Virus record (IMG/VR): IMGVR_UViG_3300040806_001368
Span: 1 to 22,298 of that record
Reading direction: 5' to 3' (one strand)
Source: a virus
DNA length: 22,298 nt
The position numbers and the translations under genes were made by a program. Below, piece after piece: positions 3,029 to 22,298 of this stretch. The notes below the pieces were generated by a model, which did not search any database, was not told the DNA's origin, and saw nothing but the letters and a program-made list of their open reading frames with translations. Numbering within the stretch: position 1 is the stretch's first letter; every line of letters starts with the position of its first letter.

Positions 3029-3036
3029 TATAAATA
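3029..3036 (+). promoter_or_regulatory. T4-type late promoter octamer before gp25 gene
   Basis: Exact TATAAATA followed by ATTAAA and the ATG of the gp25 gene at 3043: a 6-base spacer. With the T4 late start position (about six bases past the octamer) the mRNA would begin at or within one base of the start codon. Confidence 0.85.
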
Positions 3037-3042
3037 ATTAAA

Positions 3043-3510
3043 ATGGCAATTTCTATTCAATTTGAAAAAAATTTTAAAACAGATTACACCTATTCTGACC
3101 TTTCTTTGGATATGGAAAATGAATATACTCCGTATGGTGAATCTAATTTAACAAGAGGTGGTGGTAATGGTGACATCAAAACAGATTTTGATGAACATGC
3201 TATTGCGAATTCATTGCGAAACCTTTTTTCAACACGACCAAAACAAAGGCTACTCGACCCAGAATATGGGTTGGATTTATCTCAATTTTTGTTTGAAAAT
3301 GCAAATGAATATACCGCTAGATTAATTGGTCGTAAAATCGAACAAGGTATTCGCAAATATGAATCAAGGGTAACACTTAAATTTGTTGAAGTTGTTGTTG
3401 ATGAAGAATACAATAGTTATGATATATCATTAAACCTAACTATACCATCACTCAATAAGGATGTTGTTTATCGTAGCATTTTTACTGAGAATGGGTTCAC
3501 AAATATTTGA
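3043..3510 (+). CDS. gp25: Baseplate wedge protein, gp25 family
   Basis: A 155-residue protein of the GPW/gp25 family. In contractile tails gp25 joins the baseplate wedge and helps nucleate the sheath. The family core is visible: DIKTDFDEHAIANSLRNLFS (44-63), the turn RPKQRLLDPEYGLDL (65-79), QFLFENAN (81-88), and the helix ARLIGRKIEQGIRKYE (92-107) before the final beta strands. The T4 Glu-Pro-Arg turn corresponds to STRPKQR here. The N-terminal 40 residues are a variable arm with a Gly-rich turn. It starts 6 bases after an exact late octamer, with no Shine-Dalgarno sequence. The gp6 gene follows after 30 bases, the order expected of T4- and P2-type baseplate operons. Family assignment is secure. 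Confidence 0.92.
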   Translation: MAISIQFEKNFKTDYTYSDLSLDMENEYTPYGESNLTRGGGNGDIKTDFDEHAIANSLRNLFSTRPKQRLLDPEYGLDLSQFLFENANEYTARLIGRKIEQGIRKYESRVTLKFVEVVVDEEYNSYDISLNLTIPSLNKDVVYRSIFTENGFTNI

Positions 3511-3526
3511 TAAATCAAAAATATTT

Positions 3527-3534
3527 AATAAATA
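3527..3534 (+). promoter_or_regulatory. Late promoter octamer before gp6 gene (7/8 match)
   Basis: AATAAATA followed by ATTGAA and ATG at 3541. It differs from the consensus at the first base only and keeps the 6-base spacer of its neighbours, so it is probably a working but perhaps weaker copy. Confidence 0.65.
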
Positions 3535-3540
3535 ATTGAA

Positions 3541-5310
3541 ATGGCAGAAAACTACATAAACTACAATTTACCAACAGATGCGTATCTAAACTTTGATGCT
3601 GAATCATTTAAATCTTATATGATTCAGAAACTATCTGATAATGAATGGTTTACAGATCAAAAATTCGTTGGTAGCAACTTAAATAATCTACTAGATATAT
3701 TAGCATATGCTAATAATACTCTTTTATTCTATTTAAACCAAACATCTAAAGAGTCTATGTTTTCGGAGGCAGAGTTTTACGAAAACGTTAACAGGATTGT
3801 TAAGTTGATTGCATATAAACCAAGAGGGGTTGTAACTGCTACATTGGGATTTACCGCTACATCTACACTCGCAAAAGGTGTATATAGTATCCCAAGATAT
3901 TCATTCTTTAATATTGATGGTATAAGCTATTCTTTAGTTAAAGATGGAACATTCGTTAAAACCACAGATACCCAAGAAACTCTCACGGAGTTTTCTAACT
4001 CATATATTTTATACAATGGTAAGTATGAGAGATTAGGTGACTATACATCTGTTGGCGATGCATCAGAGATTATCACTCTTTCAGCAAGTGATAAATACAT
4101 TGATTCAAATACAATCGACGTATATGTTCAAAGAAATGGGGTGTGGTCAGAATGGAAACAAGTTGAGGATTTATACTTTTCAGATTATGATGAAACTAAT
4201 TTTTCTGTTCGTTTAAATGAAAATTCAGATTATGATATTATTTTTGGTGATGGTATTAATGGTTCAGCATTACAACGTGGGGATATCGTAAGTGTATTTT
4301 ATTTAAATAGCCAAGGCGAAGAAGGTGAAGTTACACAAGATTTCCTTAGTGGTCAAATGACTATATTTAGCACACCTAGAATAAATCAAATTTTATCAGA
4401 TATTAATGATATCAACTATATATCAACATCAGATGTTTCTAATATTTCGTTCTCAAATAATTTACCATCGACTAAATCATCAGTTAAAGAAAGTGTTGAT
4501 AATATTAAATCGAATGCGTCCATTTTCTATCAAAGCCAAAATCGTTTAATTAGTAAAAATGACTTTACATCGTTTGTTAAAAATAACTATAGTGGTATAA
4601 TCAGTTCAGTTAAGGTTATAAATAATCGAGATTTTCTTGAAAACCATATTGGATATTTATCACAAATTGGTGTAGCGTATCCATTTGAAGATGGTCGTAT
4701 TTTAACAAATCAATATTTCTTTTCAACTCCATGTAATTTTAATAACGTTTATATATATGTTGTCCCAAGAGTTGAGCAGAAATTTTCTACATTAAGACGA
4801 ATTAATTATATCAATCCTGCTCAAAAACAAACTATTATCGATGCGATGGAAGATAAGAAGGAAATATCTCTTGACATTATAATTCAAGACCCAGTTTATA
4901 TGGGGGTTGATATCGGCATCACTGGTATTGGGGATACTGTATCGTTAGGTGATATATCGGAAACAACGCTAGAAGTTACAACAAGTTCATCTAATATTGA
5001 TATTAAAAATATTAAAACACAAATTGTAAATATTTTTAAAAATTACTTTCTCCCTTCAAATTTTGAACTTGGACAAACAATAAATCTTCAAGAATTAAAC
5101 AATAAAATATTAAATATAAATGGTGTTTCGTCTATATCAACAAAAAATGGGGATAGAGTTTCTAATGGGTTGAATCTTTATATTTGGGATGTTGTGTATG
5201 ATACAAATTATACCAGTACATCACAAAATTATAATTTAGAAGATTTTCAATATGCATTCTTCTATGATTTAGATAATCTTTCTGAAAAAATTAATGTAAC
5301 AAATGGATAA
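3541..5310 (+). CDS. gp6: Baseplate wedge protein, gp6 family
   Basis: A 589-residue protein of the gp6/J-type baseplate wedge family; in T4 gp6 dimers with gp7 form the core of each wedge. The N-terminus carries the typical signature: a helix around DAESFKSYMIQKLSDNEWFTD (20-40), then GSNLNNLLDILAYANNTLLFYLNQTSKESMF (44-74) and the segment NRIVKLIAYKPRG (84-96). The middle has IIFGDGINGSALQRGDIVSVFYL (about 233-255), the usual FGDG-x-x-G turn of this family. Length is close to that of the T4 protein (about 660 residues). Its stop overlaps the start of the 1624-residue gene by 8 bases, so the two products are probably made together. Assignment rests on motifs plus the position directly after gp25. 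Confidence 0.88.
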   Translation: MAENYINYNLPTDAYLNFDAESFKSYMIQKLSDNEWFTDQKFVGSNLNNLLDILAYANNTLLFYLNQTSKESMFSEAEFYENVNRIVKLIAYKPRGVVTATLGFTATSTLAKGVYSIPRYSFFNIDGISYSLVKDGTFVKTTDTQETLTEFSNSYILYNGKYERLGDYTSVGDASEIITLSASDKYIDSNTIDVYVQRNGVWSEWKQVEDLYFSDYDETNFSVRLNENSDYDIIFGDGINGSALQRGDIVSVFYLNSQGEEGEVTQDFLSGQMTIFSTPRINQILSDINDINYISTSDVSNISFSNNLPSTKSSVKESVDNIKSNASIFYQSQNRLISKNDFTSFVKNNYSGIISSVKVINNRDFLENHIGYLSQIGVAYPFEDGRILTNQYFFSTPCNFNNVYIYVVPRVEQKFSTLRRINYINPAQKQTIIDAMEDKKEISLDIIIQDPVYMGVDIGITGIGDTVSLGDISETTLEVTTSSSNIDIKNIKTQIVNIFKNYFLPSNFELGQTINLQELNNKILNINGVSSISTKNGDRVSNGLNLYIWDVVYDTNYTSTSQNYNLEDFQYAFFYDLDNLSEKINVTNG

Positions 5311-8300
5311 GCCAACCTTTCAAATATTATCAGATACTGAGTTATATTCTAATCAATTAACTCCACTACGGGTATCATCGATACCATCCGATGAATATAG
5401 TTCGAACTACTATATATGGGATTTTGGTGATGGTAATCGATCAATTGGTCAAACTGTTGAACATGTTTATGAAACCGTTGGTGATTTTGATATAACATTA
5501 ACACAATACCTTCCAAGTGGTGAACCTGTTAAATCGGAACCACAAACAGTAACTGTTAGAAATTTAATCCCAAATCTTATGGAATGGGATAGTGGTTCTT
5601 ATAGTGGGGGATCAATAACCGCATCTGTTAAAAATGATACAGCATTTATTGCCAATGTTTATAACAGTTGGCAACAATATTGTGAAGACTCATTTCTACA
5701 TTTATACGCTGAAAATTCAAAGAGCATCCCTTTTGATATTACAGATAAAAGAATACATTTAAAACCAAATTGGAGATTTTTAGATACTGATGACAATGTG
5801 ATCGAAACTGTTACATTATCCCAAGATAAAATATATGCTCAAAAAATAAATGGAGAAATTTATCTAGATACAAACGAATCTAGTGACAGTGTATTTGTTG
5901 GGGTTAGTTCACAAGCGAAATTCTTTTTTGTTGATGACACGCCATCTGGTATTTCTCCAGATGAAGATTATTTACCGTCAACTATCATTGTAACGCAAAA
6001 TTTATCTGGTGTTTATGGGGATGAAAAATTTAAAAAAGAAGATTATTTACAATACCCATCATTGATAAATTCGGTGTTTGTTGATAATATTGTTCCAGAA
6101 AAATTATCCATAACATCAAATGGTGTATTCGATATTTCTAATATTAAATTCATTAATACACAAATACCTTACAATATTAGATTAGTAGATTCAAATAATA
6201 ATTTCATTAAAACCGATCCTATTGAATCTGATGTAATAAGTTCACATGAAATTAATATAGGGTTTATAGGGGATGTTTCTAAAGAGAGTTTACCATCATT
6301 TGAAGGTAATACATTAGAAAGATTTGTCCCAGATTTCAGTAATCTCGGTGGGTTTTTTGAATCTTATTTTATAGTTACACAACCAACAACAGAAGCCGTC
6401 ACTCTAACAGCATCAACATCTATCGATTACTCACTTAATAAGATATTGACGAGGTATGGTATATTCTCTGATGAAAACTCAAATAAAATTTATAGAACAT
6501 CATTTATTGATGGGTTTGATAAAAGCTATATAAGAAAAGATTCCGATGTAATAGGTAATGAATACGATGGGGTTACTTCAAATAAATTTGGTGCATTGAT
6601 CGATACAAATTATAATGCTGTATTTTTAGATTCAGATGATTCACGAATTGAAATATATGATACTTCATTTGAATTGATTAGCTCAATTGAATTATCGAGT
6701 TATGATGAATTTATTTTATCTTCAGATGGTTTAACGTCATATCGGGGGGTGTCATCTCCTGCTCAAATACAAATGGATAAAGTTGGCGATTATTTTATAA
6801 CCCTTCACGATACTGCTGATTTATTATACGTTACTGGTGATGAGGTCAAAAAAATAGATTTATACCCGCAAATAAGCGGGGAGTTTGTTACATTAAGTGG
6901 TTCACCTATTATATATAATGGTGGTATAGAATTGTCGAGTTATGTCTATATTGATAATGAAGATGGATTTGTCTATCAACCAGCAGCATTGGATATTTTA
7001 AGTGACAATAAAACGATATATATAGCATATACAGGTGGTGGATATAATTTTGTTCAAAAATATGTGTTGGATAGATCAACTGATCCATATACGTTATCAT
7101 CTATCGGGACGATTGGTTTATCAAGTGATGTTCCTGTTGATATGTTATCTAATAGAAGTGGGGATTCGTTGTATATTTTAGCTACAAATTATTATAGTGG
7201 GGAGAGCTATATTAAAAAATATTCAACAATTGATAATTCATCAAGCAGTAATGCTATAGGGTATGACGCTGAATTTATAACCATTGATACAAATCAAAAT
7301 GTTTGGTCTATCGTTAAAAAACACGATGTTGGGACAGATTATAATAGACTTGTAGAAATAGATTCTACAAGTAATGAGGTGATCGTACATCCATATGAAA
7401 AAGAAATTGAAAATGAAAATTATACATCAATATCCCCAGAATTATCAACATCGTGGATAGTTATTACATATTATTGGGAACAAACCAGTGGTGATGATTT
7501 GGATACTAGAACTTCCATAATACAGGATGGTGAGTTTTGGAGTGGGGTTGAGGTTGGATACGATAGGGATACATATGTTGGTAACAGTGCAACTGATTAT
7601 GTTATGCTGTGGGGTGGGGATAATACAGCATCTGGATATGAGAGCGTTGTTGTCGATGTTGCCAATTTAAAGGAAAATGGGGGTTCCGATTATATGTCCA
7701 TTCGTTTAGCGGCACATTGGTTTGGTTCAATGGGAAACGGGGCTGTGACAATTGGTGTAAAAACATATAGTGGGGGAACTATAAATATATCAAACAACAC
7801 AATAACCGTAGTTGGGGGAACGTTATTAAATACGTATTTATCTGATGTTGTAACTATTACAGAAACCAACGATTCATTAGAATCGGGTCAATTTATTGGA
7901 GAAGTTCCCATAGAGTTAGTTACGGGGGGGATAGGCGGCTCAGTTGTACATGGGTATAAAAATATAGGTGGCATAACGGGTGACTCATATGGACATGTGT
8001 GGGTTTTAAATAGCGATGATGATGTTGTTGATATTATTGATGTAGACGATACCAATAATACCACAAAAATCACAATAAATGAAGATATCGACAATGAAAA
8101 AAATAAATATGTCGCATATGGTGATTGGAATGGGTTTAGGTGGTTTAATAAATTCGGATTCGACGGAACAATTATTACATATGATTTGAGTGGGCAATCA
8201 GCGCCATTTAATATTTACCCACAAGATAAATATAATATCCAGAAAATAAATGAAGATTTTGATGCTACTGAAACATTGAAATCATACAGGACAACTGATT

Positions 8301-10177
8301 TAATGTTAAATTATGATAATCTTTTTGATAATTTCTTGGGTAGCATATATGGAAATAGATTAGATGATGGGACATATATCGGTAAAAACATCTATGAAAA
8401 AATTGCAAATTTTGTAATGAATCATGGTGACATTGAAACTTGTTCTATTGATGCACTTGAATCGTTTTGTGAGGAAACTGGTATCGTATTCGATACAAAA
8501 TTAAATCTTCCGAGAGATATTAAAAGAATTGTTGATTTATTTAGTATTAAATTTAAAAAACTTTGGGGCGAAGATTATAAAACTGGATTCATTGAAGACT
8601 ACCGTGGGGATGAAATAAACACATTAACATATGAGGTATCTGCTGATCCGCAAACTAAGTTCATTGCCAAAGAAAAATTTAATAATTATTATTCAATAAT
8701 TACACCACTGATGATAGATGGTTTAAGTTCGTATCCAATAAGTTCTTACGAGCAATCTTGGGGGTGGGGTTTATCTATTCCAACTGGTGGGAAACTTGAA
8801 GATTATTACGAGTTTTACGAGTTCAATAGTGTTGATGAAGATAGGTTGATTTCTATTATTGATTGGGATAACCCATTAACTGATAGTAGTATTAAGCCAT
8901 TATCATCATTCGGTAATTATATGGATGAGGGTGGAATTGTCTCAGTATCGATAGGTGATAAATTGCGCAGGGGGTTAGATTTATATGTTACTGTTCAAGC
9001 AGAAGATGGTGATGGTGATGGTGATGGTGATGGTGATGGTGATGGTGCGCCTAAAACATATCACGTAACCGCCAAAAAAATCCCACTTGGGGCTGGGATT
9101 GTTAGTAGTAATATTGGGGCAACAACGGTGGGTGATTGGGCTGTATTTACACCATCCAACATGGATGACGATGGTATAACATCATATAACCCAACAACTG
9201 AGGAATTCCAAGTTAGTGCTCCAATCCCAGACGGAAATGGTAGTTTTCTACACGAAACAACCATTGGGGATTGGGCTGTATTTGGTGCGGATCGTTCAGA
9301 TTATTTCGTTGCATATAATCCTATAACGGATACTTATAAGGTGTCTCCACAATATACGACATCATCGTTCAAAAAAACAGAAGGTCTTACGGTCGTTGGG
9401 GATTATGTAGTATTTGCTCCACATGGTGATAGTAAAATCACTGCGTGGGATGTTGAGAATAACACACTACTAACTAATACTGATATACCTACAGCCGAGT
9501 TGGAAAATTTCTGGTCTGTTGCCGCAACAACTGTGGGGGATTGGGCTGTGTTTGCTCCACATTGGGGTGAGTATATTTATGCATGGAACCCAATTACAGA
9601 TACGGTAGTAAAGTCCGAATTCATTACATTAAATAATGGTTGGGATGAGTTTGTGGATGCTGTAACTGTAGGAGATGTCGCGGTTTTTTGGCCTAAATAC
9701 CACACCCATATTGTGACATTTAATCCAGTTAGTAACACCCTCCGACAAACTGAGCTTCCATACGTTCCAGATAATATTTCGTCGATTGGATACCATACCG
9801 TAACCAATGTGGGGGATTGGGTAGTATTTCCTCCGTGGACTAATTCGGCGGGAGGTATAAAGGATAGTCGTATATTATCATATAACCCAATAACTGATAC
9901 ATTCCAATACTCTGAGCCATTATCATATGTTGATGCAGCATTCACTGGCTCAACCAATATTGGTAATTGGGTTGTATTTTCTCCGTGTGATACGGGATAC
10001 TTTATCAATGCGTATAACCCTATTGATAATATACTATTGGAAAGCACCGTAGATGAGACTGAGTGGGCTGGTTATGCTTGGGTTTATAGTGAGGGTATAA
10101 CAGCGGTTGGGAATGTTGCTGTAACTGCACCATACTTTAATGGTGATATAATTCAATATGAAATCATTGAAGTTTAG
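5303..10177 (+). CDS. Giant multidomain baseplate protein with PKD and beta-propeller regions (possible gp7 equivalent)
   Basis: A 1624-residue protein starting inside the gp6 stop region. Domains seen: a PKD fold (about 5-88; WDFGDG at 39-44, HVY at 54-56); beta-rich regions to about 350; propeller-like strand repeats to about 990, interrupted near 715-845 by a domain with DLDTRTS and WGGDNTASGYESVVVDV; a helical segment (about 1000-1110) with LFDNFLGSIYGN, a Cys-containing helix and KRIVDLFSI..KLWG; a linker of seven Asp-Gly pairs (1235-1248); and a C-terminal propeller (about 1250-1624). The propeller shows eight repeats of the type T-V-G-D-W-A-V-F-x-P alternating with YNPITDT; the terminal QYEIIEV and initial TYHVTAKK would close the ring. 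Gene order gp25-gp6-this matches T4 6-7 and P2 W-J-I, so the helical segment may be the wedge core and the propellers surface appendages. That role is inferred. Confidence 0.7.
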   Translation: MDKPTFQILSDTELYSNQLTPLRVSSIPSDEYSSNYYIWDFGDGNRSIGQTVEHVYETVGDFDITLTQYLPSGEPVKSEPQTVTVRNLIPNLMEWDSGSYSGGSITASVKNDTAFIANVYNSWQQYCEDSFLHLYAENSKSIPFDITDKRIHLKPNWRFLDTDDNVIETVTLSQDKIYAQKINGEIYLDTNESSDSVFVGVSSQAKFFFVDDTPSGISPDEDYLPSTIIVTQNLSGVYGDEKFKKEDYLQYPSLINSVFVDNIVPEKLSITSNGVFDISNIKFINTQIPYNIRLVDSNNNFIKTDPIESDVISSHEINIGFIGDVSKESLPSFEGNTLERFVPDFSNLGGFFESYFIVTQPTTEAVTLTASTSIDYSLNKILTRYGIFSDENSNKIYRTSFIDGFDKSYIRKDSDVIGNEYDGVTSNKFGALIDTNYNAVFLDSDDSRIEIYDTSFELISSIELSSYDEFILSSDGLTSYRGVSSPAQIQMDKVGDYFITLHDTADLLYVTGDEVKKIDLYPQISGEFVTLSGSPIIYNGGIELSSYVYIDNEDGFVYQPAALDILSDNKTIYIAYTGGGYNFVQKYVLDRSTDPYTLSSIGTIGLSSDVPVDMLSNRSGDSLYILATNYYSGESYIKKYSTIDNSSSSNAIGYDAEFITIDTNQNVWSIVKKHDVGTDYNRLVEIDSTSNEVIVHPYEKEIENENYTSISPELSTSWIVITYYWEQTSGDDLDTRTSIIQDGEFWSGVEVGYDRDTYVGNSATDYVMLWGGDNTASGYESVVVDVANLKENGGSDYMSIRLAAHWFGSMGNGAVTIGVKTYSGGTINISNNTITVVGGTLLNTYLSDVVTITETNDSLESGQFIGEVPIELVTGGIGGSVVHGYKNIGGITGDSYGHVWVLNSDDDVVDIIDVDDTNNTTKITINEDIDNEKNKYVAYGDWNGFRWFNKFGFDGTIITYDLSGQSAPFNIYPQDKYNIQKINEDFDATETLKSYRTTDLMLNYDNLFDNFLGSIYGNRLDDGTYIGKNIYEKIANFVMNHGDIETCSIDALESFCEETGIVFDTKLNLPRDIKRIVDLFSIKFKKLWGEDYKTGFIEDYRGDEINTLTYEVSADPQTKFIAKEKFNNYYSIITPLMIDGLSSYPISSYEQSWGWGLSIPTGGKLEDYYEFYEFNSVDEDRLISIIDWDNPLTDSSIKPLSSFGNYMDEGGIVSVSIGDKLRRGLDLYVTVQAEDGDGDGDGDGDGDGAPKTYHVTAKKIPLGAGIVSSNIGATTVGDWAVFTPSNMDDDGITSYNPTTEEFQVSAPIPDGNGSFLHETTIGDWAVFGADRSDYFVAYNPITDTYKVSPQYTTSSFKKTEGLTVVGDYVVFAPHGDSKITAWDVENNTLLTNTDIPTAELENFWSVAATTVGDWAVFAPHWGEYIYAWNPITDTVVKSEFITLNNGWDEFVDAVTVGDVAVFWPKYHTHIVTFNPVSNTLRQTELPYVPDNISSIGYHTVTNVGDWVVFPPWTNSAGGIKDSRILSYNPITDTFQYSEPLSYVDAAFTGSTNIGNWVVFSPCDTGYFINAYNPIDNILLESTVDETEWAGYAWVYSEGITAVGNVAVTAPYFNGDIIQYEIIEV
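9005..9046 (+). repeat. Tandem hexamer (GATGGT)x7 encoding an Asp-Gly linker
   Basis: Seven perfect copies of GATGGT in frame, coding seven Asp-Gly pairs (residues 1235-1248) between the helical/beta part of the giant baseplate protein and its C-terminal propeller. Because the unit is two codons, slippage changes linker length without breaking the frame. Confidence 0.95.
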
Positions 10178-10248
10178 CAATTTCATATCGAAAACCACAC
10201 TGTAGATTTTTAGTGGTAAGTATCTTTGATGATGGTTCTCGCCAATAT

Positions 10249-10256
10249 TATAAATA
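10249..10256 (+). promoter_or_regulatory. T4-type late promoter octamer
   Basis: Exact TATAAATA followed by ATTAAA and the ATG at 10263 (6-base spacer), identical in layout to the gp25 promoter. It probably drives the small gene and phoH behind it. Confidence 0.85.
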
Positions 10257-10262
10257 ATTAAA

Positions 10263-10484: not shown

Positions 10485-10499
10485 TCTAAAGACTAATTT

Positions 10500-11252: not shown

Positions 11253-11290
11253 TTAATCCTTGCATTTTAAAATAATTGTGGTATAGTTGA

Positions 11291-12023: not shown

Positions 12024-12623
12024 ATGATAAATGAACATTTTGAAGAAGAATTAAAAATTCTAGAAAAAACAGTTGATCCAACTGAAGAAGATAACGATTT
12101 AATCATTCGTGATTACATCCCTGCAATTAGAGAAATCTTAAAGATTGCAGCAAAACAGGGTCATTCTGGAATGTCGATTCAATATTATGCTGCATCAATA
12201 GCTAACACTATTAAAAATGCGTTGTTGTTGAAACCGTTGTCACCATTAACTGGTGAAGATAGTGAGTGGGTAATCCATGATTGTGATGGTATGTATGCGC
12301 AGAATAATAGAAATTCTGCAATATTTAAAGACGAGAAAGATAGTAAACCATATTTCTTAGATGCTATTATTTTTCAAGGTGAAGATGAATATGATACATT
12401 TTCTGGATCAGTTGGTGGTATTTCTAGTAGACAATATATTAAATCATTTCCATTTACGGCTAAGACGTTTTATATCGATGTTTATAGAGAATTGTATGAC
12501 CCAAAAAAACATGGAGAAGGTGATGGTGTAGAAGTATCTGTGTGTGGTGATGGTGATTATGTTTACTTTATTAAAGATGAAAAACAATTAGACGAAGTTT
12601 GGGAATATTATGATAGATTCTAA
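12024..12623 (+). CDS. Conserved phage protein of unknown function (PLTGEDSEW type)
   Basis: A 199-residue protein. It contains a helix with KQGHSGMSIQYYAASIANTI (44-63), then LLLKPLSPLTGEDSEW (67-82), NNRNSAIFKD (93-102), and a Thr/Phe-rich strand FPFTAKTFYIDVYRE (142-156). The combination 'HSG...L-x-PLTGxDxEW...N-x-R-x-S-x-x-F' is one I associate with an uncharacterised family widespread in phages; I know no function for it. It is soluble and acidic at the N-terminus. The following small gene starts 14 bases before its stop, so translation is probably coupled. Family resemblance is recalled only, and the protein could not be tied to a pathway. Confidence 0.65.
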   Translation: MINEHFEEELKILEKTVDPTEEDNDLIIRDYIPAIREILKIAAKQGHSGMSIQYYAASIANTIKNALLLKPLSPLTGEDSEWVIHDCDGMYAQNNRNSAIFKDEKDSKPYFLDAIIFQGEDEYDTFSGSVGGISSRQYIKSFPFTAKTFYIDVYRELYDPKKHGEGDGVEVSVCGDGDYVYFIKDEKQLDEVWEYYDRF

Positions 12624-12970: not shown

Positions 12971-12978
12971 TATAAATA
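12971..12978 (+). promoter_or_regulatory. T4-type late promoter octamer
   Basis: Exact TATAAATA followed by TTTAAA and the ATG at 12985 (6-base spacer). The spacer differs from the common ATTAAA only at its first base. Confidence 0.8.
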
Positions 12979-13433: not shown

Positions 13434-13441
13434 TATAAATA
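13434..13441 (+). promoter_or_regulatory. T4-type late promoter octamer
   Basis: Exact TATAAATA followed by ATTTT and the ATG at 13447 (5-base spacer). It would drive the 119-residue gene and the coupled helicase gene. Confidence 0.8.
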
Positions 13442-13446
13442 ATTTT

Positions 13447-13806: not shown

Positions 13807-15482
13807 TGGATAAAGACCTATTTAAACACTTCCCAGAGGGAAAAGACCCTAGAGAAAACCAAGTAAAACTACTACTACAGCTTCAAGATGCTTTTAAGAG
13901 TGATAAAAAGTTTGTAGTCGTTAATGCCCCAACAGGTGTCGGTAAAAGCTTTTTGGCAGCAACAATAGCTAACTCCAGTGATAACCCATCGATTGATTTT
14001 AAGCAGTTTGTAAATTCATATAGGATATGGAACCCAGTAGATGGTAAAGATGAGGCATATAAATTTCCACACTATGGCGCTGCTGTTTTGACTGTAACAA
14101 AAAATCTTCAAGATCAATATACAAAAGATTTTGATAATTTACATCTACTAAAAGGTAAAACAAATTATCTATGTGAATATGATGGTGAATCAGATGTTGA
14201 AAGCGCACCATGCACTAGTCAGAACTCTTTAAAACGACAGTGTTGGGATTGTGACCGCTGCACTTATTATACTGATAGGAATAATAGCATATCTAATCAA
14301 TTCGGTGTGTTTAATTATGACGTTTGGTTGCACCTACCAGATCATGCTCGTAGAAAAGAAATCTTAATTTGTGACGAAGCTAGTGAGATTGAGAATGTTA
14401 TTATCAGTTTCTTTTCATTAGATATAAGTTATGAATGGGTTGAAAAATTATTAGAGGTTCAAAAATATCCGAGAATACCTTCAGAAGAACCAAACAAAGC
14501 TTATGATTGGTTGATGGAATTAAAAGAATTGATTGATGCAACTATTGATGAAAATAAAGAATTATTGGAATCACCAAAACATAAAAAGAATAAAGGTTTA
14601 AAATTCCGCCAAAAGGGATTAGAAAGATTGCAAAATGATTTTAGCAAAGTGATTGGTAATTTTGCCAAGAATGGTGAAAATCAAGATGCGGTTGAATATG
14701 TTATTGAAAGGGTTGCACCAGATAGATTTAACAAGAATGTTAAAGAGGGCGTTACATTTACACCATATCGCGCAAATAAGTTAGCAAAAAAATTATTTAA
14801 TAGTGTCGAAAAGGTAATGTTCTTGAGTGCAACGATTATCGATCATAAAAAAGAAATGAGTGATTTAGGTATCGAGCGTGATGAATACACATATATTGAA
14901 GCACCTAGCGCATTTGATCCAATGAAGTCACCTATCTATGTTGTTGGTAATTTTCCATTGACATATAATCTAATGGAAAAAAATCTACCAAAGGTTACAG
15001 AAATTACTAGTAGAATTTTAGATAAACACTCGAAACATAAGGGGTTGATCCATACTGTAAGTTTTAAAATCACAAAAGCTGTTGAAGAGGGTATCATTAA
15101 TGATAGGTTGATATTCCGTGATGATGGTAAAACAAATGATATCTTACTGAAGGAACATAGTGAAAGTGATGAACCTACTGTTATGGTTAGTCCTTCAATG
15201 AGTCATGGTGTTGATTTAAAGGGTGATTTGGGGCGTTTTCAAGTGATTATGAAGGTTCCATACCTTCCACTTAGTAACAAACGTATAAAGCGTTTAAGTA
15301 AAGAGGATTATAAATGGTATTTAAATAAAACTCTATCGTCACTTGTTCAAATGGCTGGTCGATGCACCCGCACTGATACAGATAAAGCTGTAACTTATAT
15401 TGTTGATGGGGCGGCAGCTAATTTATTAAAACGAAATTGGAACAAACTACCTAAATATTTTAGGGATAGGATCAAAGTATAA
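13806..15482 (+). CDS. XPD/DinG-like superfamily 2 helicase with Cys cluster
   Basis: A 558-residue helicase. Walker A is APTGVGKS (41-48); a Cys-rich insert follows (C123, C136, C146, C149, C152), as in the iron-sulphur domain of XPD/DinG helicases; motif II is CDEAS (189-193), with Ser in place of the usual His; then SATI near 345, SPSMSHGVDLKGD (about 460-472) and the arginine-finger motif QMAGRCTR (515-522). These enzymes unwind DNA (5'-3' for DinG), often on R-loops or repair intermediates. Length is shorter than E. coli DinG (about 716). Expressed from a late promoter through the coupled gene in front. Its TAA stop overlaps the next late octamer (15478-15485). The family call is good; the substrate is unknown. 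Confidence 0.85.
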   Translation: MDKDLFKHFPEGKDPRENQVKLLLQLQDAFKSDKKFVVVNAPTGVGKSFLAATIANSSDNPSIDFKQFVNSYRIWNPVDGKDEAYKFPHYGAAVLTVTKNLQDQYTKDFDNLHLLKGKTNYLCEYDGESDVESAPCTSQNSLKRQCWDCDRCTYYTDRNNSISNQFGVFNYDVWLHLPDHARRKEILICDEASEIENVIISFFSLDISYEWVEKLLEVQKYPRIPSEEPNKAYDWLMELKELIDATIDENKELLESPKHKKNKGLKFRQKGLERLQNDFSKVIGNFAKNGENQDAVEYVIERVAPDRFNKNVKEGVTFTPYRANKLAKKLFNSVEKVMFLSATIIDHKKEMSDLGIERDEYTYIEAPSAFDPMKSPIYVVGNFPLTYNLMEKNLPKVTEITSRILDKHSKHKGLIHTVSFKITKAVEEGIINDRLIFRDDGKTNDILLKEHSESDEPTVMVSPSMSHGVDLKGDLGRFQVIMKVPYLPLSNKRIKRLSKEDYKWYLNKTLSSLVQMAGRCTRTDTDKAVTYIVDGAAANLLKRNWNKLPKYFRDRIKV

Positions 15483-15485
15483 ATA
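15478..15485 (+). promoter_or_regulatory. T4-type late promoter octamer overlapping the helicase stop
   Basis: Exact TATAAATA containing the TAA stop of the helicase gene (15480-15482), followed by ATTATTT and the ATG at 15493 (7-base spacer). Confidence 0.8.
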
Positions 15486-15492
15486 ATTATTT

Positions 15493-16521
15493 ATGAGATT
15501 AATAACGAAACAAGAGGGGTTTGCGTTAAAATACGCAAGACAAAAAGAATTAGCAGAATATTCTGACAAGTATCAACTCCATTGTGGAGGGGCTTGTGCT
15601 CATTATGGAAAAATACCAAAGGGGTGCGCAAGTTGTCTTTTTTCTGATGTTTATGCAAATGGGTCGTTTTTGGGGTATACGTTTAATTTACCCAACGCAT
15701 GTAATGCAAACTGTAAGCATTGTTTTACCCCACTTGGGGATAAGCCACATGAAAGAACATGTAACCCTAATTTTAAACTTCCCGATGGTTGGAGCAACAT
15801 TGTTGATGCGGAATTACTTAATGGTAGTATGAGTCCCATAAATGAGATAGTTAAGTCAAGTAACAATAAAAACCCAGTTGCATTGATTTCTTTTAGTGGG
15901 GAGGGGTCAGAACCCCTCTTATATTATCCTGTAATTGAAAAGGTTGTTAAACATTATAAGGAAAATGTAGAACCATATATCGATAAACCTATAACATATA
16001 AATTATATACTAATGGTAAATTATTAACAGAAGAAATGATCGAAAAGTTAGTAAATATCGGTATCAATGAGGTAAGGATAAATTCATCTGCATTTAATTT
16101 TCATGACATAATTATAGAAAATATGAGAAATGCATGTAAAGCATTTCCCGTTGTTACTAGTGAATTGGGGCTATTCCCTAAATACTATGATGATATATAT
16201 AGGTTAATGCCAGTATGGGATGAAATGGGGTTAACTCACTTGAGTTTATGCCAACCTAAGTATAAAGATAAGAATGTGTTTAAACAAAATATTGACTTAT
16301 TTCCTAAAGATGCAGTATGTTATCCAGCGTCGAATGATTGGCTCATGGTTGATGATGGGGGTGAAGCAGAAAAAATGATAAAATATGCTATAGATACTAA
16401 TATATCATTTTCTATCATAGATTGCAATTGCTTTGTGATGAATCAAGAAGACGGTGGTAATGGTATATCTAAACAATTGAATTATTTAGATTTTAATGAT
16501 GTTATCGAAATGAACGTATAA
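15493..16521 (+). CDS. Radical SAM enzyme with extra cysteine clusters
   Basis: A 342-residue radical SAM protein. The SAM-binding iron-sulphur motif is CNANCKHC (C70, C74, C77). FSGEGSEP (134-141) is the glycine-rich SAM-binding strand and YTNGKLLTEE (172-181) the typical later strand. Ahead of the core lies CGGACAHYGKIPKGCASC (C31, C35, C45, C48), and near the end are C253, C276 and the pair C311/C313, which could ligate further iron-sulphur clusters. Such enzymes use a 5'-deoxyadenosyl radical to modify peptides, RNA or small molecules; the class here is not identifiable. Alternatives include a peptide-modifying or an activase-type enzyme. It has its own late promoter 7 bases upstream and is convergent with the oxygenase/fibre operon. 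Late expression points to a virion or host-modifying role, which is inference. Confidence 0.85.
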   Translation: MRLITKQEGFALKYARQKELAEYSDKYQLHCGGACAHYGKIPKGCASCLFSDVYANGSFLGYTFNLPNACNANCKHCFTPLGDKPHERTCNPNFKLPDGWSNIVDAELLNGSMSPINEIVKSSNNKNPVALISFSGEGSEPLLYYPVIEKVVKHYKENVEPYIDKPITYKLYTNGKLLTEEMIEKLVNIGINEVRINSSAFNFHDIIIENMRNACKAFPVVTSELGLFPKYYDDIYRLMPVWDEMGLTHLSLCQPKYKDKNVFKQNIDLFPKDAVCYPASNDWLMVDDGGEAEKMIKYAIDTNISFSIIDCNCFVMNQEDGGNGISKQLNYLDFNDVIEMNV

Positions 16522-16525
16522 TACG

Positions 16526-16551
16526 TAATATTACCCTATAAAGTAATATTA
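16526..16551. repeat. Inverted repeat at a convergent gene junction
   Basis: TAATATTAC (16526-16534) and GTAATATTA (16543-16551) form a 9-bp A+T-rich stem with an 8-base loop, between the stop of the radical SAM gene and the end of the minus-strand gene (it overlaps that gene's last codons). A bidirectional terminator is possible, but neither strand shows a T run after the stem, so this is a structural observation. Confidence 0.5.
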
Positions 16552-17042
16552 TCGGGTATCATTAGCACCAACCAAATTTGATCGGTATCGGACTTATCGA
16601 TCCTATGGACATCTGCGCTATTAAATTCTATAGCAGAATATTTTGCGACTTTGATTTCTTTTTTATCAGATTTAAAAATAACGCTGTTATTATCTGTCAT
16701 TGCTATGCAAAAGAATTTACCAATTGTGTTCTTTTGCCACCCATCATAATCCATCCAATCCAAGAAATCACCCTTTTTGAATTGTAGTAAACTTGCGGAT
16801 AAGATTAAATCATTTAAACCTATTTTAGATGATAAACCTTCAATTTCATCAAAAAGGTCATTATTTTCTAATATCTTTTTAAAGGATATGAAATCATACT
16901 TGGAAATATTATATCTTTGGTGAGAGTTCCCAACTCTTACATCAATTTCATCGACTGGTTTAAATCCAATATTATTTGCTAATGTAATTATAGATTCACA
17001 TTCTTTTTTAATATCTTTTAATTTATGTATTTTTCTATTCAT
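16536..17042 (-). CDS. Possible degenerate 2OG/Fe(II) oxygenase-like protein
   Basis: A 168-residue protein, last gene of a minus-strand operon. The C-terminal half looks like a double-stranded beta-helix: LQFKKGDFLDWMDYDGW (86-102), IGKFFCIAMTDNNSVIFKS (107-125), VAKYSAIEF (132-140), DVHRIDKSDTDQIWLVL (144-160). It can be laid against the neighbouring 182-residue oxygenase: the strand with the metal motif there (PHVD) aligns with DWMD here, so the first metal His is Trp and only the Asp (D98) is kept, while a distal His (H146) remains. It may therefore be inactive, use another ligand, or belong to a cupin-like fold. It starts 10 bases after the oxygenase stop. The alignment was made by eye and is tentative. 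Confidence 0.45.
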   Translation of the reverse strand: MNRKIHKLKDIKKECESIITLANNIGFKPVDEIDVRVGNSHQRYNISKYDFISFKKILENNDLFDEIEGLSSKIGLNDLILSASLLQFKKGDFLDWMDYDGWQKNTIGKFFCIAMTDNNSVIFKSDKKEIKVAKYSAIEFNSADVHRIDKSDTDQIWLVLMIPDNITL

Positions 17043-17052
17043 AATTATTTAA

Positions 17053-17601
17053 TTAAAATAACATTACCAAACTATAACGCAATTTATTTACAGGTGGAAC
17101 CCAATGTATAGGGGTTGTCCCCTCAAAGTGATACCCTACCCCCTTTTCATCTCTAAAAATCTTTACTAATCCATTTTTTACTGCATCATCTAAACATGTA
17201 TTGTTATAATATACATCTGGATCACCAAAAACTAATTTGTTTTCCGAGTTAGTTTGTAATGGAACTATTATAGTGTGTAAACTCATCCCTTTGTCAACAT
17301 GTGGTGGTATGAATGACCCCTGTTCATATTTATTTATTTGAACCTCTTTTACAGGGAACCCATCTATCTCTACGTTGACAAAATATTTTTCCCACAAATC
17401 GGTTAAAGATTTTGGGCTAACTTCTGCTGCATAATATTTACCCAAATCGCCACGAACACTATAATTGGGATAATACTTACTCCTATCTATAAAAATATTG
17501 GGGTTGTTATGGATATACTCCAACAACTCATCACAAGTGTTCACAGATAAGAAATCTACATATTTGTGCAACAAATCTTTTATCTCATCTAAATGTGCCA
17601 T
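17053..17601 (-). CDS. 2-oxoglutarate/Fe(II)-dependent oxygenase
   Basis: A 182-residue protein with the 2OG/Fe(II) oxygenase signature: NKYEQGSFIPPHVD (90-103) gives the iron-binding His101 and Asp103; a second beta strand region (LHTIIVPL, 108-115); and IHWVPPVNKLRYSLVM (165-180) supplies the distal His166 and a 2OG-binding Arg175, nine residues later as in prolyl-hydroxylase-like members. Such enzymes hydroxylate protein side chains, nucleobases or small molecules; the substrate is unknown here. T4-like phages of aquatic hosts often carry several. Its ATG shares a base with the stop of the tail-assembly-like gene in front (TAATG on the minus strand), placing it in one unit with two fibre genes, which makes a fibre protein a candidate substrate (inferred). 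Confidence 0.85.
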   Translation of the reverse strand: MAHLDEIKDLLHKYVDFLSVNTCDELLEYIHNNPNIFIDRSKYYPNYSVRGDLGKYYAAEVSPKSLTDLWEKYFVNVEIDGFPVKEVQINKYEQGSFIPPHVDKGMSLHTIIVPLQTNSENKLVFGDPDVYYNNTCLDDAVKNGLVKIFRDEKGVGYHFEGTTPIHWVPPVNKLRYSLVMLF

Positions 17602-18104
17602 TATAAATCATTGATCCTTTCATAAAGACCGCCCTTTAATATTTTTTTGTTGAGTTCTTCTTCGTCTTCTTTAGATATATAATCCCATTCTGGGTTATTT
17701 TTATATGCGTTTTTATATCGCGCATTAAGTAATCGTTTTTTACCTATAAAATCGTGAATTTTTTTAAATCTATCAATAGATTCACCAGATAAGTTATTTT
17801 GTTGTATAATATCATTTAAAACATCTGATATAATATTTAATTGCTTATATAGAGGATATTCTTTAGATATTGACTCTTCACACATTTGGTTTAAATTGGT
17901 TTCTTTAACCTCTGGTTTAGCTTCAGATATAGCTATAACTTTACCATTAATGATGTCACCACCATCCCAGATATGGGTTGTTGGATCAAATTCAAACTCC
18001 TTAAAAGATAGAAATTCTGAATCAATTTGATTTGTTTCTTTAGAATATGTTGTTCCAAAATATTCTCCAGATTGTTTATTAAAAAGTATAATTATTTTAG
18101 CCAT
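17601..18104 (-). CDS. Tail-fibre-associated protein, assembly-factor-like
   Basis: A 167-residue protein. The N-terminal half has short beta strands and a tail-fibre-assembly-like phrase (KIIILFNKQSGEYFGTTYS, 3-21; FEFDPTTHIWDGGDI, 37-51); the second half is helical (SISKEYPLYKQLNIISDVLN, 78-97; DRFKKIHDFIG, 110-120; KNNPEWDYISKEDEEEL, 134-150). The pattern of a short beta head with a helical tail and an I-x-x-K/E-Y-x-x-x-K/R-Q-L segment is common in small phage proteins encoded right after tail-fibre genes. Position supports this: the two upstream minus-strand genes are fibre-like. A fibre chaperone or tip-attached protein is the best guess. It is linked by a 1-base stop/start overlap to the oxygenase gene. 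Confidence 0.5.
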   Translation of the reverse strand: MAKIIILFNKQSGEYFGTTYSKETNQIDSEFLSFKEFEFDPTTHIWDGGDIINGKVIAISEAKPEVKETNLNQMCEESISKEYPLYKQLNIISDVLNDIIQQNNLSGESIDRFKKIHDFIGKKRLLNARYKNAYKNNPEWDYISKEDEEELNKKILKGGLYERINDL

Positions 18105-18124
18105 AATTTGTATGAGTTATAGGG

Positions 18125-18727
18125 TTATATTGCGAATGTATCAGTTCTAGCCCATACATTACCCGCATTAACAACAAATACACTAACAGATGATGTTTGT
18201 CTATATGAAGTTCCATTGCTATAATGCGACAACTGATACCCCCAATTTACTATTACCTTACTCCCAACAGGTAAATTCGGGTATATTTGTTTGGCGGCAT
18301 TTATTACACTAGTATATGAATTGTTAATATTTGATCTACTTGGGTCTGTTGCAAATATTGATCCAGCCAAATTGACATAGTATATATTATCTTTTGAGGT
18401 ATCATAATCAGTAATTCTACCATCAATATAATCTTTTATCCTTTTTTCTGTCACAATAGCCGAATCTGAATTAAACTCGGAACTATCACTAGAGTCCAAT
18501 AAATCAATTTCATCTGGCACGTCACTTGTTTGTGATAAATTTCCAATAACTTTTTTGCCCCCAATAGTGTCTAATTGGTTTATTGGTAAAGTTATATCAC
18601 TTTTCTTAATTTTATGAGATGTTGCCCCTCTTTGAATAAAGAAGTAGTCCGTTCCCCTATTTTTGGGATCGGCTTCCTGTAAAATATTGATAGTATCAAT
18701 TTGTGTATTTGGTGTAACCTGTGGCAT
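18125..18727 (-). CDS. Tail-fibre-like protein (shorter paralogue)
   Basis: A 200-residue protein. It shares with the 248-residue upstream gene a layout of two blocks: an N-terminal DYFFIQRGATSHKIKKSDI (27-45) and a middle KVIGN...SDVP (59-71) followed by DSAIVTEKRIKDYID (88-102). The C-terminal 90 residues are beta-rich and different (SIFATDPS, SKVIVNWGYQLSHYSNG, SVFVVNAGN). The N-terminal block would anchor to the virion or a partner fibre and the variable C-terminus would bind host or be the tip; this is inferred from shared-anchor/variable-tip logic. It lies 5 bases after the upstream gene. The second of a likely fibre pair in a late minus-strand operon. Confidence 0.65.
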   Translation of the reverse strand: MPQVTPNTQIDTINILQEADPKNRGTDYFFIQRGATSHKIKKSDITLPINQLDTIGGKKVIGNLSQTSDVPDEIDLLDSSDSSEFNSDSAIVTEKRIKDYIDGRITDYDTSKDNIYYVNLAGSIFATDPSRSNINNSYTSVINAAKQIYPNLPVGSKVIVNWGYQLSHYSNGTSYRQTSSVSVFVVNAGNVWARTDTFAI

Positions 18728-18732
18728 AATAT

Positions 18733-19479
18733 TTACGCAAAGACCCTAAATCTAAATTGCCAATTTGCTGGACTGGAAGCTGGGTCAAATGTAGTACCAT
18801 CGCTGTATTTGGCATAGTTTAATTGGTTAAGAGTTTTATATTTAATAGTTGTATTATTTACAATTAATGTAGAATATGCTGACCCATTATCACTTTGGCT
18901 GTTGCTTATAATAAGTTCATCATCTTGTGAAAATCCATTATTAGCAATTAAACATTTGTAGTATAACACTACAATCTGTGGAGTTTGTGTAAAACCAATA
19001 CCGCTAAGATCACCCGTAACAATATTCCCAGGTAAAGGCGACCCGCTAAATTCACCATCAACCGATTCTGAAAATATAGAAGGAAGTGAATCAATATAAT
19101 TAATCACGGCATCACTAGTCGGGATATTATCATCACTCGCATTAGTTAAATTTGTAATCACATTTACTTGACTTGGAACATCGCTACTATCCGTTGTGTT
19201 GCCGATCACTTTCATACTGTCGATATTTTGTAGTTTTGAAAGCTCTACAGCAGCGTCTGCTAATTGTGCAGTGTCTACACCACCCGCCTTTATGTTTAAT
19301 TTATTAGAAGTTGATTCGATTGTAGAATCATCTGGTAACCCTGCAACCAAATCCGAGTATTTAAATTTATATGATTTAAGGTTCTTCTGAATCAAAAACA
19401 AATCTGTAGAGCTTGCGTCCCCAAGGTTTGATAGGTTATTGATTAATTTTAACTGTGCAGTTGTAGTCATTGAAGTCAT
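18733..19479 (-). CDS. Tail-fibre-like protein (longer paralogue)
   Basis: A 248-residue protein with the style of phage tail fibres: a stalk-like phrase GGVDTAQLADAAVELSKLQ (67-85) as in trimeric fibre shafts, then KVIGN (90-94), SDVP (99-102) and TSDAVINYID (121-130), followed by a beta-rich C-terminus (about 135-248). The N-terminal DLFLIQKNLKSYKFKYSDL (26-44) matches the equivalent block of the next gene. The start at 19479 is supported by an exact late octamer with a 6-base spacer; another ATG three codons later (19470) is possible. It heads the minus-strand operon and faces away from the large gene at 19536, the two sharing a 56-base divergent promoter region. Confidence 0.7.
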   Translation of the reverse strand: MTSMTTTAQLKLINNLSNLGDASSTDLFLIQKNLKSYKFKYSDLVAGLPDDSTIESTSNKLNIKAGGVDTAQLADAAVELSKLQNIDSMKVIGNTTDSSDVPSQVNVITNLTNASDDNIPTSDAVINYIDSLPSIFSESVDGEFSGSPLPGNIVTGDLSGIGFTQTPQIVVLYYKCLIANNGFSQDDELIISNSQSDNGSAYSTLIVNNTTIKYKTLNQLNYAKYSDGTTFDPASSPANWQFRFRVFA

Positions 19480-19485
19480 TTTAAT

Positions 19486-19493
19486 TATTTATA
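19486..19493 (-). promoter_or_regulatory. T4-type late promoter octamer, minus strand
   Basis: Exact TATAAATA on the minus strand followed by ATTAAA and the ATG at 19479 (6-base spacer). It is back to back with 19522-19529, 28 bases apart. Confidence 0.85.
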
Positions 19494-19521
19494 AAATATA
19501 ATTGAAATAAACGATTTGTGT

Positions 19522-19529
19522 TATAAATA
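19522..19529 (+). promoter_or_regulatory. T4-type late promoter octamer before the large right-end gene
   Basis: Exact TATAAATA followed by ATTCAA and the ATG at 19536 (6-base spacer). Confidence 0.85.
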
Positions 19530-19535
19530 ATTCAA

Positions 19536-22298
19536 ATGGCATTTTTTCTCGATTATAAAATTCTCAAATACTCTATTGTTAATACGATAGAGACTTCAGA
19601 AACTAAAAAAGATTCACAAGAACCTTATCCGTTTATTGATTTCATCAAAAATCTGGATATTGATAATATTGGTAATGAATTTGTTGTCGATTCATATAAC
19701 AAATACTTGATTGAGTGGACTAAAATTAAGAATCAAGATATTACATCTTTTGAAGATATTCGTAAATCTAAATATGTTGATCTTTTAAAAAATATTCAAC
19801 TAAATTATCTAAACCAAGACGAACAACGAATTTTGGGTGATATTAATTTTGATGACCCCCTTGAATTAGATGTGGCTATTCCATTTTTCGTAGAAAAAAT
19901 TAAAGACATTATTGAATATTACATCAATAAGCGCAGAGATGTTCAGAATAGTAAAGCCAAGTGGAGTACAAAGGGTAGCAAACGATTCTTAGAAAATGTT
20001 ACTGCAAAATACATCATTGATAATTATACAAAAAATGAAAACACATTTCAAAGATATAAACAAAATTATCAAGAACTTAGCTCATTCCAAAGAAATTATG
20101 AGTTAACATATGATGGACTTTATGATTTAAATGATTATCGTGCAAAAGAATTTGATTTAGATGAATCTTTATTTTTAAGTTCATCTAGTGATTATGATCT
20201 AAGTAGCTTACCTATAACAAGTTATAGTGCTTATTATGAATCTGAATCAACTTTAATTTCAGAGCTTAAGAAAGATATCTATAAAAAATATATTTCTACA
20301 GATAGACAATATATTAAAGATGGCGTCTCAAAGGAAATAAAAAGCACAACACCTTTTTATGACCCATATAATTATGATACACCGTATATTTCAAGAATTT
20401 CTGATACGACAAATCTTCTACGTGATGCTGATATCGGATATTACTTTACCAGTAAATATATTTATACGAGTAATTATTATTCGCCATATGGGATATCAAC
20501 ATCGAATACAGATAATTTGGTTGGATTATTACCAAAACTTAATGTTTATAGAAGCGAAGATTATAAGGATTATTATTTCTGGAGTAAATACACTGCATCC
20601 GATCAAGGGTTGATCGGAAAACCAGTTTTCGATAAAAGATTAAAGCGGTTTTATGGGTATCAAAGCCGCGATTTGAATATTGGTGATAGTGTCGGGGGAG
20701 TCGAAAAATATACTGACAATGTCCAACTATGGAAAGGTGATAAAAATGAATCTTGGGCAAATGAGGATATTTTTGATAAATTCAGCGGTAACGTATTAAA
20801 CCGCGATCTTAAAAACAAGTTCTTATTTACTTTGGAGGAAAACGAATCTGTTTATAAATACGTTTGCGATATTTATGGGAATCAATATTATTTAATCAAA
20901 AAAATAAATACACCAAAATCGGCTTCAGAAAATATTTATACGTTAAATACATCTAATGTTGATGACTCACTTGCTATTTCAAATATATCATTATTGGGGC
21001 AAAGGTTGTCTACATTAAATAGTTTAGATGCTATTCAGATTAAAGATAATGTCGGTCTTGGTTTCTTTATGACAGCAGTTGATATCTCACAAGAGGTCAT
21101 TGAAACTATAGAAGACTTTAACACGATAGATGTTGGTTATTATGACCTATTGCAATCAAACACCTTATTTGATACTAAGTCAATTTCATCTGATGAGTAT
21201 GATTCACAAAAATCAGTATATGAAAATCAATATACAGTTGGTAAAATATATGTTAGAGATGTTAATAGTAAGCACGTTAAAAATATAAATGAATTTTTAG
21301 ATTTAGATGGTGGTTTAACAGGACTAATAAATGTCGATGTTATCAATGATTTTATCATTTTTACAACGGGGACTAATATATACACATCTAAAATAAAGTA
21401 TGATTATTCGTCAAGTGACCTTAGTTTCCAAGAAATAACTAAAAATGAATTGCCATTTTATAATGACCCACTAATAAAGACATCGGCGTATTGGTATGAA
21501 ACGAATAGTAGACGTGTTTATTTTGCTGATGTTAACCACGCGCTCAGTTCGTATGAGTTATATTATATCGAAACTGAAACAAATACAAAAGTATCATATC
21601 GTATTGATGATTCAAATATTGATTATATGTTAGGCAACATAATATCAATTGCAACAATCTCAAAACCACAATTAATCAAACGCGATAACTTTTTATATCT
21701 AATCATCTTACTATCTGATACATGCAATAATTATTATTACCAAATTATTGTATTTGAAATCGTATCCAAAAATAATCTAACTGCGATTTCAAATACAATA
21801 TATCATCCATCTAGTCTAACCATAACAAGTGATATAAAGGGTGATTCACTTGCAATGTCAACACCTGAATTATCATCATATAATCTATCCTCATTTCCTT
21901 TGGATACAATATATCGTTGGGCTAATGGGCAGGAAACATTTAACCTACCATATATAACATATTCCAATAATGTCACATACTATGATAACGATAGTGGGGT
22001 TACAACTATAAGTAAACCACCAACAACATATAATCTGAGTGATATTATAATCAATGCTAATGTAACACCAGTTTCAAATATAACAACAACCGAAGATTCA
22101 TACTATTATGACTGTGGTTATATTTACACTCCTGTAGATATTGTTGTTGATTTTAGAGAAATACCAAATATAACATCATATGTGCCAAATGATGAGCCGA
22201 TCTATAAAATTGAATATTTTATAAATGGTAAAATTAAATCCAGTTTCATACTTGATACAAATGATATTGAAACAGATACATTACTATATAATACGACA
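19536..22298 (+). CDS. Large structural-type protein, truncated by the window edge
   Basis: Reading from ATG 19536 gives 921 codons without a stop up to the window edge, so the 3' end is missing. The product is Tyr-, Asn-, Asp- and Ser-rich with many short beta strands (for example DFIIFTTGTNIYTSKIKYDY, AYWYETNSRRVYFADV) after a helical N-terminal region (about 1-180; FIDFIKNLDIDNIGNEF, KDIIEYYINKRRDVQNSK). The repeated strand-turn pattern in the second half suggests a beta-propeller or fibre-like fold, but no family can be named. Size, composition and position beside baseplate and fibre genes point to a virion structural or tail protein. The start is well supported by the exact late octamer and 6-base spacer; no ribosome binding site is seen. 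Confidence 0.65.
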   Translation, partial: MAFFLDYKILKYSIVNTIETSETKKDSQEPYPFIDFIKNLDIDNIGNEFVVDSYNKYLIEWTKIKNQDITSFEDIRKSKYVDLLKNIQLNYLNQDEQRILGDINFDDPLELDVAIPFFVEKIKDIIEYYINKRRDVQNSKAKWSTKGSKRFLENVTAKYIIDNYTKNENTFQRYKQNYQELSSFQRNYELTYDGLYDLNDYRAKEFDLDESLFLSSSSDYDLSSLPITSYSAYYESESTLISELKKDIYKKYISTDRQYIKDGVSKEIKSTTPFYDPYNYDTPYISRISDTTNLLRDADIGYYFTSKYIYTSNYYSPYGISTSNTDNLVGLLPKLNVYRSEDYKDYYFWSKYTASDQGLIGKPVFDKRLKRFYGYQSRDLNIGDSVGGVEKYTDNVQLWKGDKNESWANEDIFDKFSGNVLNRDLKNKFLFTLEENESVYKYVCDIYGNQYYLIKKINTPKSASENIYTLNTSNVDDSLAISNISLLGQRLSTLNSLDAIQIKDNVGLGFFMTAVDISQEVIETIEDFNTIDVGYYDLLQSNTLFDTKSISSDEYDSQKSVYENQYTVGKIYVRDVNSKHVKNINEFLDLDGGLTGLINVDVINDFIIFTTGTNIYTSKIKYDYSSSDLSFQEITKNELPFYNDPLIKTSAYWYETNSRRVYFADVNHALSSYELYYIETETNTKVSYRIDDSNIDYMLGNIISIATISKPQLIKRDNFLYLIILLSDTCNNYYYQIIVFEIVSKNNLTAISNTIYHPSSLTITSDIKGDSLAMSTPELSSYNLSSFPLDTIYRWANGQETFNLPYITYSNNVTYYDNDSGVTTISKPPTTYNLSDIIINANVTPVSNITTTEDSYYYDCGYIYTPVDIVVDFREIPNITSYVPNDEPIYKIEYFINGKIKSSFILDTNDIETDTLLYNTT

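Follow-up and report, generated by a model that had tools for sequence, protein, structure and literature searches.

Start-codon-fused octamers of the T4 late-promoter type and predicted leaderless mRNAs in an uncultivated phage family

Could a T4-type phage begin its late mRNAs on the start codon itself? The question is raised by a 22,298-base fragment from IMG/VR, IMGVR_UViG_3300040806_001368 (labelled G000; the window hereafter means this whole stretch), in which octamers of the T4 late-promoter type lie almost against the ATG of the genes that they precede. T4 late transcription is the textbook example of a leadered system led by Shine-Dalgarno (SD) sequences, with which a common aquatic family joining promoter and start codon stands in contrast. 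The reading that best accounts for the data, and that we hold to be very probable from the sequences compared, is a systematic leaderless expression from T4-type late promoters fused to start codons.

Octamers and start codons in the window

The ten T4-type octamers listed in an earlier note on this DNA, nine of them exact (TATAAATA) and one AATAAATA (at 3527), are all present at the positions given below. When the spacers, i.e. the bases between octamer and ATG, were recomputed, eight of the ten octamers were found 5–7 bases ahead of the start codon, as the note had reported. On the forward strand, these fused octamers are located at 3029..3036 (spacer ATTAAA, 6 bases; ATG at 3043), 3527..3534 (ATTGAA, 6; 3541), 10249..10256 (ATTAAA, 6; 10263), 12971..12978 (TTTAAA, 6; 12985), 13434..13441 (ATTTT, 5; 13447), 15478..15485 (ATTATTT, 7; 15493) and 19522..19529 (ATTCAA, 6; 19536); on the reverse strand, one is found at 19486..19493 (ATTAAA, 6), before the ATG of the 19479(-) gene. 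All are TATAAATA except that at 3527, whose orthologs in the contigs G001 and G002 have TATAAATA. The description of the spacers as mostly ATTAAA was loose, this sequence being exact in 3 of the 8 and at most one base off in 6 of the 8, but an SD sequence is indeed absent before all eight close-spaced genes. The other two octamers are those of putative leadered late promoters. The first (2035..2042, +) is separated by 23 bases from the ATG at 2066, giving a predicted leader of 18 nucleotides (nt), and has the reported AGGA (TTAGGATAAT) ahead of this ATG; the second (2989..2996, -; TATAAATA like the first) lies 18 bases from the ATG of the 2970(-) gene. Six more exact octamers, omitted from the note (4617, 7780, 11516(-), 20459(-), 20853 and 20933(-)), do not precede any gene start.

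The genes preceded by an octamer include two late genes for baseplate wedge proteins, one gp25-like (3043..3510, +; PF04965, E 5e-15) and one gp6-like (3541..5310, +; phrog_219, E 1.6e-42), a radical SAM protein gene (ATG 15493), a large open reading frame (ORF) running off the window (ATG 19536) and several genes of unknown function. An octamer, exact or with one deviation, is conserved before the orthologs of the gp25- and gp6-like genes, which is what characterizes late promoters of the T4 type.

Spacing and conservation among relatives

Relatives were collected via the helicase, the motif, gp6 and gp23. One contig, G004, overlaps the window at ~100% amino-acid identity, and four others (G001, G002, G072 and G073) have 9–13 genes in common with it at 51–59%. 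A chain of contigs extends the window's lineage further, as G004 overlaps G006 (79%), which overlaps G007 (62%). The wider family includes larger contigs such as G070 (158 kb), G049 (132 kb) and G076 (120 kb) and carries gp55, gp46/47, gp44, gp17, gp18, gp20 and gp23 and, in some of its members, gp45. The gp23 of G004 is 63–71% identical to those of the wider family; among the isolates of the phage collection, the best match reaches only ~33%. This uncultivated T4-type family is represented in IMG/VR by at least 530 gp23 loci. In a gp6 tree (midpoint root, long branches), the family is set apart from the Kyanoviridae (cyanophages and pelagiphages) by a 100/100 branch.

The number of exact TATAAATA copies in the window is only modestly above chance (15 versus 7.5 ± 2.8 in shuffled sequences), while their position is strongly non-random; the signal is thus their location relative to ATG and not their abundance. 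This position was examined by counting the copies followed after 5–7 nt by the ATG of an ORF with a length of 60 amino acids or more; the 55 remaining permutations of the octamer served as control. In the window, 7 of the 15 TATAAATA copies are so placed versus 11/492 permuted octamers (Fisher p = 1.1e-7); in the lineage, the figures are 45/153 and 117/6039 (p = 1e-36).

The lineage TATAAATA spacers are 5 nt (n = 5), 6 nt (n = 37) or 7 nt (n = 3) long, none being found at 0–4. In the wider family, spacers counted from the core TAAATA are of 5 (n = 105), 6 (n = 64) or 7 nt (n = 26). The 82 contigs retrieved by an exact 17-mer skew to a spacer of 6, and the loci fetched by protein homology provide the unbiased check: spacers of 5/6/7 nt number 61/51/32 in the loci fetched with gp6 and 84/54/30 in those fetched with gp23. 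The reversed hexamer ATRAAT is not a valid control in these protein-fetched loci, as ATAAAT is contained in ATAAATA. The measurement of octamer-to-ATG distances across the window and its relatives, which had been proposed beforehand as a check, therefore gives a sharp peak at 5–7 nt and not random distances. The start codon at this spacing is ATG in 45 cases versus 0 for GTG or TTG in the lineage, and in 44 versus 5 in the wide set (contigs G008 to G094). The five exceptions all start with GTG and have a spacing of exactly 5 nt from TATAAATA, with no GTG-started ORF at other spacings; leaderless genes starting with GTG may exist that are overlooked by ATG-only calling.

The fused module and its spacing are kept in orthologs of ~40–75% identity while the flanking sequence diverges. 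That the protein alignments of these orthologs begin at residue 1 argues for the start codons. Conversely, window genes that lack the module (such as those for the PKD-domain protein, the helicase and PhoH) also lack it in the near relatives. Genes with the module are mostly operon starts, since 52/71 of them are either divergent from the upstream gene or separated from it by 20 nt or more (94/246 among other genes). The fused promoter/start module had been thought unusual for T4-like phages; it turns out not to be peculiar to this phage but general in the uncultivated family, and isolated Pelagibacter phages have it in part.

SD sequences are scarce in all these genomes. They precede 1/23 window genes and 17% or fewer of the genes in the contigs of the family; before the late-fused genes, they number 0/78 in the lineage and 1/213 in the wide set. 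Genes that would have no leader to house an SD sequence thus seem to be those that lack one. An exception to this scarcity is gp23, before which an SD-like sequence is found in 48/80 loci of the family. This gene, with no fused octamer and mostly an SD-like sequence, failed as a test of the octamer. A GC-rich element (GGTCGAC, CCTTGGGGTCGA, TACTTGAGGTA and similar sequences), recurrent in this AT-rich family, was also found ~25–40 nt upstream of gp23 (L267–L346); it is possibly an RNA element or a processing site.

Predicted transcription starts and competing readings

In T4, the octamer spans positions -13 to -6 (PMC2988020). With this numbering, the 5' leaders predicted for spacers of 5, 6 and 7 nt are 0, 1 and 2 nt long, respectively. 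With fewer than 5 nt, part of the AUG would be lost from the mRNA; the observed distribution ends at 5. The sigma factor that would recognize these octamers is encoded in the lineage: a gp55 homolog (phrog_234) is found directly beside gp47 in the near relatives G005 and G007, which are the nearest contigs covering this region (the 22-kb window itself is without gp55), and also through the wider family. A gp45-like gene was detected in G070, G075 and G077 only, and a single query (C48C1) gave no match for gp33. In G070 (93717-94160(-)), the gp55 profile match spans one in-frame TGA, and the 203-amino-acid ORF called there does not include the match.

A second class of promoters shows the same geometry. 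Genes devoid of octamer carry TTGA 33–36 nt and TATAAT 12 nt before ATG. Paired boxes (TTGA-16/18-TANNNT) have a -10 box starting 12 nt before ATG in 48/1002 genes of the wide set and 11/322 of the lineage; from 16 nt upwards, no single spacing exceeds 4 genes. The protein-fetched loci repeat this peak (12 and 20 at position 12), and reversed boxes used as control give a smaller rise at the same place (9 at 12). In the window, a sigma70-type promoter (TTGCAT-16-TATAGT; 11260..11287, +) has its -10 box starting 12 nt before the second ATG (11294) of a gene annotated from 11291; the -12 geometry fits only with a start at this second ATG, which would put +1 on its AUG. A TA-like signal at about -12 is a published criterion for leaderless genes (PMC3160421), and by this promoter distance the sigma70-type genes of the family would be counted among them, since in the standard sigma70 frame a -10 box at 12 nt places +1 again on the AUG. 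Two promoter types used by different sigma factors would thus share the same +1, a coincidence that a translation signal can hardly account for.

Taken together, the expression of these phages could be pictured as follows. The octamers would be T4-type late promoters, serving as -10-like boxes for the host RNA polymerase carrying gp55, and their placement would start transcription on the A of the AUG or 1–2 nt before it. Late operons would then begin with leaderless mRNAs, the 5'-terminal AUG of which would be recognized directly and not via SD sequences. Many octamer-less genes would be expressed from sigma70-type promoters of the same geometry, so that mRNAs of an earlier class look leaderless too. 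A few genes (2066 and 2970(-)) would keep a leader, and downstream genes such as gp23 could use SD sequences. The earlier proposal of leaderless late mRNAs is thus supported by the conserved spacing in orthologs, the lower limit at 5 nt, gp55, the contrast with T4 and the sigma70 class.

Several points weigh against this reading. The 5' ends of the mRNAs, the sigma factors (gp55 and sigma70) assigned to the boxes and the way in which ribosomes bind are all deduced from sequence, and the start-site rule of T4 is carried over by analogy to distant gp55 proteins. The window's lineage includes no complete genome: overlapping contigs are what ties gp55 to the window, and sequence comparison brought up gp45 in the wider family only. 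Scans of 84,980 GTDB species genomes with gp6 and gp23 yielded no relative that would point to a host. Furthermore, most proteins of the late operons come from downstream cistrons, so that leaderlessness affects the first genes only. Finally, fused modules lie less than 20 nt after the upstream gene in 21/78 cases in the lineage and 70/213 in the wide set, and modules located so close behind a gene may also be carried by read-through mRNA.

The alternative put forward in the earlier note is that the A at -3 and -6 of the spacer is a translation signal of a host that ignores SD sequences, such as Bacteroidota; in the form weighed here, the AT-rich octamer would also be mainly part of this signal and transcripts would start further upstream. 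SD sequences are rare in the window, as this proposal expects, and the window encodes surface-type domains (BspA leucine-rich repeat (LRR) and PKD) that occur in Bacteroidota and their phages. Moreover, A-3 and A-6 are known to tune initiation in F. johnsoniae, in which 87% of the transcripts have leaders >10 nt (PMC6847099). However, the octamer itself is specific when set against its 55 permutations, and Pelagibacter phages keep a distance of 5 nt with spacers that are GTANN or otherwise not rich in A. Before the 2970(-) gene, the octamer and ATTAAAA stay together in the window and in G001, G002, G072 and G073 although the ATG is ~15–18 nt away, which suggests that ATTAAA belongs with the promoter. 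The Bacteroidota promoter signature (-7 TAHHTTTG with TTG at about -33) was found in 0/16 cases in the lineage (1/22 for the reversed control) but in 14/19 in the Tenacibaculum phage pT24, a Bacteroidota phage taken as control that has no genes in common with the window at the threshold used. Added to the SD-like sequences before gp23, these data leave a Bacteroidota-type translation signal improbable; a Bacteroidota host was likewise considered and found unsupported, the lineage having no -7/-33 promoters.

Genome compaction might also bring promoters close to ATG without any function if they were squeezed into short gaps and many mRNAs read through. The intergenic gaps are indeed short, 19/71 module genes of the lineage having an upstream gap below 20 nt, but compaction predicts a broad range of distances with a minimum and not a peak at 5–6 nt with positions 0–4 nearly empty. 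It does not account either for the spacing kept at divergent starts with long gaps or for the convergence of two unrelated promoter types on the same +1, and we therefore judge it very unlikely. As for chance matches in AT-rich DNA, an octamer merely about twice as abundant as expected might suggest them, but its placement with respect to ATG (p = 1e-7 in the window, 1e-36 in the lineage) and its conservation in orthologs have already refuted them almost beyond doubt.

Comparison with known phages, and other features of the window

These putative promoters share with those of T4 (Straboviridae), whose late promoters depend on gp55, gp33 and gp45, the octamer TATAAATA, gp55 homologs, the control of baseplate and tail genes and, according to the published sites, the lack of a conserved -35 element. 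They differ from them by their distance to ATG, which is 12–35 nt with an SD sequence in between in T4 versus 5–7 nt without SD here. Bacterial leaderless genes (Zheng et al. 2011, PMC3160421) show the same -10 box ~12 nt before the start codon and the same absence of SD; here, this geometry is found in a T4-type phage family and would extend to the promoter of a phage-encoded sigma factor. A search of a collection of open-access papers brought up no description of leaderless late mRNAs for T4-type phages.

A further parallel is provided by two Kyanoviridae, HTVC008M and Mosig EXVC030M, both grown on Pelagibacter HTCC1062. In the stretches examined, 12 of their genes have the octamer exactly 5 nt ahead of the ATG, mostly without SD, but other late genes are leadered (16–28 nt) with an SD sequence, and the spacer is GTANN or another sequence, not ATTAAA. 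In HTVC008M, the genes with a spacer of 5 include those at 6280, 7562, 18916(-), 19456, 31132 and 49760. Octamer spacing is bimodal within one genome: the close mode (5–8 nt; 11 cases in HTVC008M and 5 in the Mosig stretch examined) is mostly devoid of SD, the far mode (16–28 nt) mostly has an SD or near-SD sequence, and none lies at 9–15 nt. The close-spaced starts of HTVC008M match the deposited coding sequence starts; its sigma70-type promoters, unlike those of the uncultivated family, are not fixed at -12. In the gp6 tree, both phages group with leadered relatives outside the uncultivated family. The closeness of octamer and ATG may thus have arisen more than once, a tentative conclusion in view of the long branches.

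Two other T4-type phages with octamer late promoters have the octamer further from ATG: spacers are of 16–29 nt with SD or near-SD sequences in the Methylophilales phage Melnitz and of at least 19 nt, commonly with SD, in the Synechococcus phage S-SSM5. The uncultivated family resembles by description the Far-T4 phages, uncultivated aquatic relatives of T4 without known host (Roux et al. 2015, PMC4360716), and may be the same group; the Far-T4 paper makes no mention of promoters.

From these comparisons, it seems fairly probable that the whole uncultivated T4-type family has moved its host-sigma and gp55 promoters onto the start codon. Early and late operons would then be leaderless-first, the phage sigma factor would in effect select the first translated codon, and the Pelagibacter phages would be an intermediate with both leaderless and SD-led late genes. 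If so, a large part of a T4-type programme can be run without leaders, the module provides a sequence rule for finding the true start codons in the genomes of the family, and the hosts may be ones with ribosomes able to start on leaderless mRNA. Since both modes occur within each genome of the isolated Pelagibacter phages, the leaderless question can be tested directly.

Two other features of the window can be mentioned. Its GC content is ~42% at 1-1000 and 9001-10000 versus ~30% elsewhere, and these GC-rich stretches coincide with a BspA-type LRR protein and the end of the 1624-amino-acid PKD-domain protein. The gene at 12024-12623, likely a counter-defence gene, has a product that resembles Tad3, an inhibitor of type I Thoeris (PF25185, E 1.4e-21), and that has a homolog in G072 (59% identical).

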